Source: Clostridium sp. Marseille-Q2269
Lineage (GTDB): Bacteria; Bacillota; Clostridia; Clostridiales; Clostridiaceae
Length of the DNA stretch: 40,444 nucleotides
Assembly: GCF_943736985.1 (NCBI RefSeq)
Contig: NZ_CALSFS010000021.1
Span: 1 to 40,444 of the forward strand
Reading direction: 5' to 3'
Positions 29,940-33,087 of the stretch are shown piece after piece (position 1 is the first letter of the stretch; the number at the start of each line of letters is the position of its first letter). The notes below the pieces were generated by a model. It was not told the origin of the DNA. It searched no databases and saw only the letters and a program-made list of their open reading frames with translations. The position numbers and the translations under genes are program-made.

Positions 29940-30554
29940 CTATTTTATTTGATTCTTATAATATTTCTTATTTTTAACAATAAAATAATAAAAAACATAA
30001 AAAATCACAGAGCCTATAAGATCTGATATTAAATCTATCATGGTATCATTAATACCACAATATTGTACTCTTTGCATATTTAGATTAAAAAAGGTGTCCA
30101 TGGTAAATTCATATATTTCCCAAATAACACCACATAGTGCTGTAAGAGATAATACGAAAACAAATATAAAAAAAGCATTATCAGTATCTATTCCCATAGG
30201 AGTATTATATTTTTTTAATATAATAATAGCACAAAATCCTATTATTATACCGGATATAGTATGAACCATGGTATCCCACCATTCATAACTATAGAAATTA
30301 TTTAAAGTACCTAAATAAAGAGAAATAAATATAAAAAATATAATAGATAAATATAAAGTTTTATCTGCTTTAATCTTTAATATTTTAAATATTAAAGGAG
30401 GAATAAATGTTAATATAAAGGCAGCAATTCCAATTACAGTGAAATAATAATCCTTTTTAACAATATTACTTATTATATTAATAAAAATAAGAGTTCTTAT
30501 GATGTATTTACATGTATTATAAGTTACTGTTTTTATTTTATAGTTAATTTTCAA
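29940..30554 (-). CDS. YjdF/DUF2238-like integral membrane protein
   Basis: The 204-residue product has about six membrane helices. The conserved polar stretch lies between them: EWWDTMVHTISGIIIGF, then IWEIYEFTMD and DTMIDLISDLIGS. These acidic/His residues facing the membrane are the mark of the DUF2238/YjdF group, of unknown function. Start is a TTG after AGGTGAT. The downstream gap to the aminopeptidase gene is short and A/T-rich. Confidence 0.75.
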   Translation of the reverse strand: MKINYKIKTVTYNTCKYIIRTLIFINIISNIVKKDYYFTVIGIAAFILTFIPPLIFKILKIKADKTLYLSIIFFIFISLYLGTLNNFYSYEWWDTMVHTISGIIIGFCAIIILKKYNTPMGIDTDNAFFIFVFVLSLTALCGVIWEIYEFTMDTFFNLNMQRVQYCGINDTMIDLISDLIGSVIFYVFYYFIVKNKKYYKNQIK

Positions 30555-30655
30555 AATATCACCTAGCCTTCCTTTGAGTAATGGCCAATATATAATATTA
30601 TATGGTGATTAATATGTTATTATTATGAAAATATTTCACCTAAAAGTTTATACCA

Positions 30656-30873
30656 CCTTTAGATTAAAAAAAGGATATGTGGTTAGAAAGGCAACTCACT
30701 TCAATAAGAGATTCTAATTTGTTTTTCCTTAAAATATATGATTCCAAATTATAACTCGCTGAACGCTCAAACAATAATTTAGAATATACATATATTTTGG
30801 AATAACAAACAAGAATCTCTAATTTTGTTCAAATACCTTTTACACCACATATGCCAATTTTTCAATCTAAAGG
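30656..30873. repeat. 218-bp imperfect inverted-repeat element (MITE-like)
   Basis: The ends CCTTTAGATT (30656-30665) and AATCTAAAGG (30864-30873) are exact complements. Similarity continues inward with gaps: GGATATGTGGT against ACCACATATG, AAGAGATTCTAATTTGTT against AACAAACAAGAATCTCT, and AAAATATATG against CATATATTTT. The central loop holds a more G/C-rich core, AACTCGCTGAACGCTCAAAC (30752-30771). The whole would fold into one long hairpin. It has no coding capacity. A miniature mobile element or a repeat family is the likeliest reading. Confidence 0.6.
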
Positions 30874-30909
30874 AAGATAGTATAATTGTTTGAATGTAAC
30901 TTTTTATTG

Positions 30910-30948
30910 AAGAGAAAGTACAAAAAGGGTATTTTACTTCCTCTTTTT
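30910..30948 (+). terminator. terminator-like hairpin
   Basis: AAGAGAAAGTA (30910-30920) pairs with TACTTCCTCTT (30935-30945) with one mismatch, and the T run extends to 30948. The transcript it would end is not obvious. Confidence 0.45.
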
Positions 30949-31181
30949 ACGTAAAATCTACAATTATATTTTTATTATTTAAAGAAAGGACTTAAAAAAT
31001 TTTTTAGTTAGAAAATTCGTGGGTATTATATCAACTAAATATAATCTTTATAAAATTTATATAGATTAATTTTACATATAAAGTAGCTACATAATAATAT
31101 GCTTTTAAAGATATTAAAACAAAAAATACTTTTAGAGAAGATAGATATCTAGAAAAATAATTAGGACATTTTATCTGTGAA

Positions 31182-31283
31182 CTAATATTTAAGTGTGAAG
31201 TAAACAGGACGTTTACTTAGATCTGTTGCCACAGGACGTGGCATTAGGATCCGTTAGCTTAAATATTAGAGCACAAATATTAG
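31182..31283 (+). ncRNA. two-hairpin structured RNA with ACAGGACGT loops (CsrA-binding-like)
   Basis: A 12-bp outer helix CTAATATTTAAG (31182-31193) with CTTAAATATTAG (31258-31269) encloses two hairpins: GTAAAC-AGGAC-GTTTAC (31200-31216) and GCCAC-AGGAC-GTGGC (31228-31242). Both loops present GGA within ACAGGACGT, close to the CsrA/RsmA consensus ACARGGAUGU with GGA exposed in a loop. Two further GGA sites lie at 31163 and 31247. AAATATTAG recurs at 31275-31283 and could replace the outer helix. A T-rich stretch follows (to 31299). Strand is inferred; the minus strand folds equally well but lacks GGA loops. No promoter is convincing. Confidence 0.5.
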
Positions 31284-31374
31284 TATCCTTTATTTTTATA
31301 GCCATCTATTGACTAAAAGTATTCCTTGTTTTAATTTTTATACTTTAAAAGATGTTACGTGGTAATTTTCTTAT

Positions 31375-33087
31375 TTAGTTCATGAACATTTTTATATCTT
31401 CATCCACTGTTGATATAGTTCCTATTCCAAAGTTTTCAACTAGTACTTTAGCTACATTTGGTGATAGGAAAGCTGGTAGTGTTGGTCCTAAGTGAATGTT
31501 CTTCACACCTAAGTGAAGTAATGCAAGTAATACTATTACAGCTTTTTGCTCATACCATGCTATATTATAAGAAATTGGTAATTCGTTAATATCTTCAAGT
31601 TCAAATACTTCTTTTAATTTAAGAGCTATTACAGCTAATGAATAAGAATCATTACATTGACCTGCATCTAATACTCTAGGTATTCCATTGATATCTCCTA
31701 AATTTAATTTGTTATATTTATATTTAGCACAACCTGCTGTTAATATAACTGTATCCTTTGGAAGAGCTTTTGCAAAATCTGTGTAGTAATTTCTACTCTT
31801 CATTCTTCCATCACAACCAGCCATTACAAAGAATCTTTTTATGGCTCCAGTTTTTACTGCATCAACTACCTGTGGAGCTAGAGCTAAAACTTGATTATGA
31901 GCAAATCCACCTATAATTTCACCTTTTTCTATTTCTTTAGGAGCAGCACATTTTTTTGCATGATTAATTATTTCAGAAAAATCTTTTTTACCATCTTTTG
32001 AAGGATTAATATGTTTAACTCCTTCGAAACCAGTTACACCAGTAGTGTACATTCTATCTTTATAAGAAGCTTTAGGTGTAACAATACAGTTTGTAGTCAT
32101 TAAGATTGGTCCATTAAAAGCTTCGAATTCTTCATTTTGTTTCCACCAAGCATTACCATAATTACCTACAAAGTGTTTATATTTTTTGAAAGCTGGGTAG
32201 TAATTTGCAGGAAGCATCTCGCTATGAGTATATATATCTACTCCAGTTCCTTCTGTTTGTTTTAAAAGTTCTTCCATGTCTTTTAAATCATGTCCACTTA
32301 TTAATATACCAGGATTATTTCTAACACCTATATTAACTTTTGTTATTTCAGGATTTCCGTAAGTTGATGTATTAGCTTTATCTAATAGGGCCATAGCATC
32401 TACCCCATATTTTCCACATTCTAAAACTAAAGCAGTTAAGTCATCACCAGAAAGTGTATCATCTAAAGTGGCTACTAAAGCTTTTTCCATGAATGCATGA
32501 ATGCTATCTTCGTCATACTCTAAATTATTGGCATGTTCTAAATAAGCTGCCATTCCTTTTAATCCATAAGTTAAAAGTTCTCTTAAAGATCTTACATCTT
32601 CATTTTCTGTAGCTAATACGCCTACTGTTTCAGCTTTCTTTTTAAAATCTTCAGGATTATTTGCAACCCATACTGCAGCATCGTGAATTTCTTTTTCATC
32701 TTTATCATTTTTTATTCCTAAAACGCTTAAGAATTTAGAGGTCCAGCTTTTATTTTCTTTTGAATCATAAGAACCACCAGCATTTATGATAGAATCTTTT
32801 AAGTTTTGTCTTATCTTTAAGCCTTGTTGTACTCTAAAATTTAGTGCTTTAGCATCAAAATTAGCATTAGTTATAGTGGAGAAAAGACTCTCAACTATAA
32901 ATTTATCAGCTTCATTAGTCTTTAGTCCCATTTCTCTAGCTTTAGAACTATATATTGCAATTCCTTTTACTACATAAATAATTAAATCTTGAGTTTTGGC
33001 TATATCTTCAGTTTTACCACACACACCTTTTACAGTACAACCACGTCCACCGGCAGCTTCTTGACATTGATAACAAAACATACTCAT
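31375..33087 (-). CDS. hcp: hydroxylamine reductase (hybrid-cluster protein)
   Basis: Hcp reduces hydroxylamine in vitro and handles nitric oxide stress in anaerobes. The N-terminal cluster cysteines are C5, C8, C17 and C23 ([19 protein letters not shown], the anaerobe-type spacing). Hybrid-cluster ligands appear in [54 protein letters not shown] and AWYEQKA. Length is 570 residues. An upstream ATG at 33102 is in frame, but GGAGG lies between it and the ATG at 33087, which therefore is the start. A CRP/FNR-type palindrome upstream suggests HcpR control. Confidence 0.96.

Follow-up and report, generated by a model that had tools for sequence, protein, structure and literature searches.

The CsrA-motif prediction for the RNA families TwoAYGGAY (RF01731) and Bacillaceae-1 (RF01690) is reportedly due to Gardner and Eldai. 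As published, the CsrA-binding motif is matched by TwoAYGGAY and, read in reverse complement, by Bacillaceae-1, and CsrA-binding sRNAs are predicted in Clostridia and in Bacillales plus Lactobacillales; the source presents this as an untested prediction with validation in progress and notes that the discoverers were uncertain of the Bacillaceae-1 strand (PMC4333381). Both families are listed in the discovery paper (PMC2864571). The ligand rule for CsrA-type proteins is an A(N)GGAX loop on a closed stem, a form of which, the AGGAX pentaloop on a C-G stem, occurs in RsmZ SL3 and SL4; pentaloops that lack the N bind less tightly than hexaloops (PMC4005645). In Bacillus subtilis the CsrA antagonist is FliW, and the accessible text of the source leaves open whether FliW and an sRNA act jointly in any species (PMC7652899). 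A literature search that reached few subscription papers found no published test of the CsrA-binding prediction for these families and no published account of them as csrA-linked dispersed repeats.

The window analysed here, a stretch of 40,444 nucleotides with 26.7% GC, contains a single above-threshold Rfam match in its 40 kb, to Bacillaceae-1 on the minus strand at 31201-31263 (39.0 bits; gathering threshold 35). TwoAYGGAY gives a full-length alignment (1-168) on the plus strand at 31148-31302 with an E value of 0.0014, its 34.7 bits lying below the gathering threshold of 43. We give roughly an even chance to a joint reading in which the window element represents, in a clostridium, a structured intergenic repeat of the Bacillaceae-1/TwoAYGGAY type, an already catalogued RNA type, and in which its plus-strand RNA, if made, would bind one CsrA dimer as a small binding platform. 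The element as a whole is a palindrome of ~237 bp with no strand assigned (31106-31342), whose 30-nt arms (31106-31135 and 31313-31342; inverted repeat I1) are 83% complementary. Folding by chance was rejected: 31150-31310 folds at -47.4 kcal/mol on the plus strand (z -6.1 against shuffles) and at -48.8 kcal/mol on the minus strand (z -7.3), and 31110-31350 folds at -75.5 kcal/mol (z -9.3). Within the palindrome, a second inverted repeat on the plus strand (I2; 31172-31193 with 31258-31279, 86% complementary) forms the inner outer-helix, in which 31182-31190 pairs with 31261-31269 at probability 1.0. Hairpin 1 (31198-31218, plus strand) has eight pairs, aagtaaac with gtttactt, around AGGAC, its GGA at 31207-31209; hairpin 2 (31220-31251, plus strand) has six, tgccac with gtggca at 31227-31243, around the same loop, its GGA at 31234-31236, and stands on a basal stem gatct/ggatc via an internal loop GT / TTA. 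Both pentaloops are closed by a C-G pair. They are close to a SELEX consensus for CsrA, RUACARGGAUGU, and the same source indicates that stable stems, here of 8 and 6 pairs, may be disadvantageous (PMC7652899).

The sequence-only reading had described two neighbouring hairpins with the same loop context, GGA in their loops and an enclosing outer helix of 12 bp, and all three features were recovered: ACAGGACGT occurs exactly twice in the window (31204-31212 and 31231-31239, no other exact site), the GGA of both copies is unpaired at probability 1.0, and the helix has 13 pairs in the predicted fold. With one mismatch permitted, ACAGGACGT has 4 sites in the window against a chance expectation of 1.24. 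The two extra GGA sites that it listed do exist, but they are mostly base-paired (the checked bases, 31163-31165 and 31247-31249, have an unpaired probability of no more than 10%) and were rejected as open binding sites. Similarly, AAATATTAG does occur twice downstream, at 31261 and 31275, but the pairing switch proposed for the outer helix was rejected, because the predicted probability that the 5' arm pairs with the second copy is 0.0, so that this copy does not compete for the helix, and because the word is not clearly commoner than chance in the window (7 occurrences against 4.44 expected; 19 of 100 shuffles reach 7). A second palindrome of ~225 bp lies in the same intergenic region (30650-30880); it lacks the GGA hairpin pair, and the fold of 30620-30900 that includes it reaches -70.1 kcal/mol (z -8.3).

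The closest likeness is to Bacillaceae-1 read as its reverse complement, with which the window core shares a simple hairpin and, after it, a second one set on an internal loop (GT / ..TTA) and a basal stem, as well as loops of the form CAGGAYG or CAGGACG. The two differ in the low GC content of the window (26.7%), in the AT-rich hairpin 1 and basal stem of the window core, and in the long palindrome round the core; one Bacillaceae-1 copy, L115, has an internal loop GT / TCCTTA where the window has GT / TTA. TwoAYGGAY is similar in having a long outer helix that bears, on the plus strand, a pair of GGA hairpins, whereas its loops are AYGGAY hexaloops and not AGGAC, and the window lacks the GCGACYTG stretch that three sets of TwoAYGGAY repeats contain. 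A further comparison is with the small mobile repeats of enterobacteria, among them RU-1, which we take to be ERIC; no GGA hairpin pair is known to us in repeats of that type. The 127-bp RU-1 is likewise a short, intergenic, multicopy element and has been compared to MITEs (PMC2759123), but belongs to another lineage. Sequestering sRNAs of the CsrB/RsmZ type share with the window GGA in hairpin loops on C-G-closed stems, as in the RsmZ SL3/SL4 pentaloops, but RsmZ has eight GGA motifs and the window two accessible GGAs (PMC4005645). The sequence-only proposal of a CsrA-sequestering sRNA holds insofar as motif and structure fit a CsrA ligand; it is less likely to hold for a CsrB-like gene, the relatives examined often being dispersed multicopy repeats, and the plus strand is no more than a candidate RNA strand. 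Since CsrA-binding RNAs of this type had already been proposed (PMC4333381), the proposal amounts to rediscovery of a published prediction.

From L001-L116, 44 distinct cores besides the window were obtained, of which eight were left out as misparsed, truncated or divergent and L078 as truncated, giving a Bacillaceae-1 alignment of the window and 35 copies in which some genomes are represented repeatedly. The stems covary in this alignment: 98.7% of cells are paired and 15 of 20 pairs show changes on both sides, none of 500 shuffles being as good and slid controls being 30-41% paired; the basal 3' arm of the window row is displaced by three columns and is consequently scored against pairing. 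The constancy of the GGA loops in this alignment is partly built in, because the loci were collected with a GGA-containing search pattern, and some relatives found by model lose one or both loops, an outcome that the sequence-only reading had listed as speaking against it. Among 33 model-found Bacillaceae-1 copies, to which the bias of that pattern does not apply, 17 were predicted to have two GGA loops, 12 a single one and 4 no such loop, counts that come from folding the match region alone on the strand with more GGA loops, so that some short regions cut a hairpin off and the short locus L321 may cost some loops. TwoAYGGAY copies from four genomes have two A(N)GGAX core hairpins in 33 of 37 cases, the exceptions being L145, L162 (clipped by the region used), L171 and L172. 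Four Bacillaceae-1-like copies were also seen in G091, which is missing from the positives listed for the draw from the class of G002; their loci have 33-39% GC, and CAGGACG loops number two in L296, L302 and L307 and one in L311.

Both RF01690 and RF01731 are dispersed repeats, often with many scattered copies per genome and not one regulatory gene, an observation that is new here and suggests that both of these orphan Rfam families, similar in architecture, consist of dispersed repeats and not of single sRNA genes. RF01690 has 7, 47, 24, 53 and at least 150 matches in five Bacillales genomes, and one tandem array (G003:C4:356465-360587, of which L118 is the first part) comprises 14 Bacillaceae-1 cores at an exact period of 312 bp. 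For the laboratory strain Bacillus subtilis 168, a published source gives at least eight Bacillaceae-1 copies (PMC8208703). A phylum draw of 149 genomes gave 21 with RF01731, with from 1 to at least 17 matches each and a single match in 5 of the 21. Copies within one genome have sequence in common well beyond the hairpins, and in both the G005 set and the G002 set the copies end alike, with no long terminal inverted repeat seen. The evidence for MITE-like traits (multicopy occurrence, defined ends, inverted repeats) comes from relatives. In G124, for which 16 of 17 matches were used (L144-L159), 13 of 16 copies are bracketed by a duplicated gene-specific terminator-like hairpin, one on each side, the other three copies being L148, L149 and the left-truncated L158. 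The flanks of these 13 copies score above all 240 cross-copy comparisons, with edges set by best match, where as many as 20 of 38 positions on the left are mismatched, and the right-hand hairpin often runs into a T-tract, as intrinsic terminators do. The repeats of this genome look as if they had inserted into terminators with duplication of the whole hairpin. The pattern does not generalize to two other genomes, none of 6 G063 copies and none of 8 G075 copies having duplicated flanks once two and one copies, respectively, had been dropped for unclear ends. In some of the G063 copies (L173-L180), the repeat seems to be nested in a longer palindrome formed by GGAGCTTTGTGCTGCAAAACCTGGCCAAG and its complement across the element.

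Copy number, the tandem array and the host hairpins on both sides of the G124 copies fit the strongest rival of the preferred reading, namely a MITE- or REP-like DNA repeat, mobile now or in the past, that plays no part in CsrA regulation. A transposase would then recognize the hairpins as DNA, or they would be a by-product of palindromy, and the link to csrA would come from shared ancestry of motile lineages; we take this possibility seriously without favouring it. It is opposed by the retention of two A(N)GGAX hairpins across the four diverged TwoAYGGAY sets, by the csrA counts given below, and by the flanks, as duplication failed to appear in G063 and G075 and no direct repeats of 12 nt or more were found flanking the window copy.

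Tests of strand are in keeping with a mobile repeat. The orientation test drew on 131 Bacillaceae-1 copies with the GGA pattern, of which 15 lay inside ORFs of at least 90 amino acids and 103 were intergenic with both neighbours; it left out apparent chance hits (L064, L088, L103 and L114), duplicates and any copy no more than 400 nt from the end of its locus. The GGA strand of these 103 showed no bias with respect to gene orientation (same-strand upstream gene in 58, downstream gene in 50), and no clear bias was seen for TwoAYGGAY (20 of 36 upstream, 12 of 34 downstream). Deviations to G-U and to A-C, whose frequencies should differ if selection acted on the RNA of one strand, were about equally frequent among paralogous copies (18 versus 15 and 3 versus 1 pair variants) and gave no sign of such selection, and among TwoAYGGAY paralogues broken pairs exceeded compensated ones (30 versus 12 variants). 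At three loci, L294 and L300 in G144 and L301 in G222, a Bacillaceae-1 element abuts the start of a 16S rRNA gene, the linkage of L300 being taken from the 16S start motif only; here the UCCUG strand, not the GGA strand, is the rRNA sense strand, and one of the two GGA loops is changed in each copy. A 2022 article on Bacillaceae-1 (Gene 841:146756) is said to describe two classes in its abstract, one of them beside rRNA clusters.

The argument for CsrA comes from co-occurrence as well as from loop form. With csrA called by PF02599 above cut-off, the gene was found in all 21 RF01731-positive genomes and in 80 of 128 negative genomes (Fisher p 1.3e-4, shared ancestry uncorrected), and in 53 of 55 RF01690-positive and 101 of 195 negative genomes among 250 drawn from the class of G002 (p 3.7e-11, again uncorrected for shared ancestry). 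Both families together give 74 csrA-encoding genomes among 76 repeat-positive ones, a count in which ancestry and the tie between csrA and motility are uncontrolled; csrA was not found in the RF01690-positive genomes G382 (seven matches) and G267 (one weak match). A CsrA role is plausible on the strength of the Rfam match above gathering, the common core layout, stem covariation, A(N)GGAX loops and csrA co-occurrence, and CsrA binding by the window element itself is, as a prediction from these comparisons, likewise plausible. Counting against such a role are the lack of orientation bias and strand signal, the transcription of 16S-linked copies on the non-GGA strand with one loop changed, the loss of GGA loops in some copies, the two genomes in which csrA was not found, and the weaker binding of pentaloops. 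On the reading of the window element as a repeat copy that acts as a CsrA platform, the plus strand would be transcribed by read-through or from its own weak promoter, the two AGGAC loops would each occupy one of the two binding sites of a single CsrA dimer, a step that we infer from loop chemistry and csrA co-occurrence, and the transcript would become a small CsrA binding platform. A broader idea, which we consider doubtful, is that Firmicutes titrate CsrA, in place of one CsrB gene, by mobile palindromic repeats scattered over the whole genome, each with a hairpin pair for a CsrA dimer, that is, a distributed sponge that would have spread by transposition, in at least one genome into terminators, where its RNA might end up as a 3' UTR. 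Paired CsrA-type hairpins in at least 150 copies in one genome, with csrA nearly always present, make the question of joint FliW and sRNA action directly testable.

A dedicated sRNA gene of the CsrB/RsmZ kind, starting from a plus-strand promoter and ending at the U-rich 3' end of the palindrome, is improbable. A promoter-like site, TTTACA-16-AATAAT at 31071-31098 on the plus strand, does end 8 nt before the palindrome, and the two accessible loops are of the CsrA type. However, the site is weak and such sites are near chance level here (10 matches in 30500-31500 against 7.4 +/- 2.9 expected), no terminator passed in a scan of the same interval, and such a gene is made less likely by near-chance promoters, by accessible GGAs that number two and not many, and by relatives that are often scattered repeats. 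Least probable of all is a minus-strand element, either a structure at the 3' end of hcp or an RNA with UCCUG loops that pair to Shine-Dalgarno sequences, for although the minus-strand gene hcp has its end at 31375, 33 nt from the palindrome, and would read into it, Rfam models the minus strand (RF01690) and the three 16S-linked copies are transcribed on the corresponding strand, Bacillaceae-1 copies lie in both orientations to genes and the 16S-linked copies each have one changed loop.

A copy in a clostridium, which the host was taken to be from the sequence-only reading and the low GC content, would be unusual, since RF01690 was found in just 6 of 398 genomes of a phylum-wide draw with stricter filters (5 of them over the cut-off), 4 of which were also positive in the draw from the class of G002. 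No close relative of the window organism was present among the genomes searched, in which the best Hcp matches had 72-80% identity, a few of them covering just a portion of the protein. The small groups centred on G125, G011 and G048 (20-37, 21 and 1 genomes, respectively) gave no nearer match. Collections of plasmid and phage DNA gave weak, partial matches to the element, with one record covering 18% of it and two Mycoplasma phage records covering 24%. The GGA hairpin pattern also occurs in two viral-contig stretches, L292 and L293, twice in the latter.
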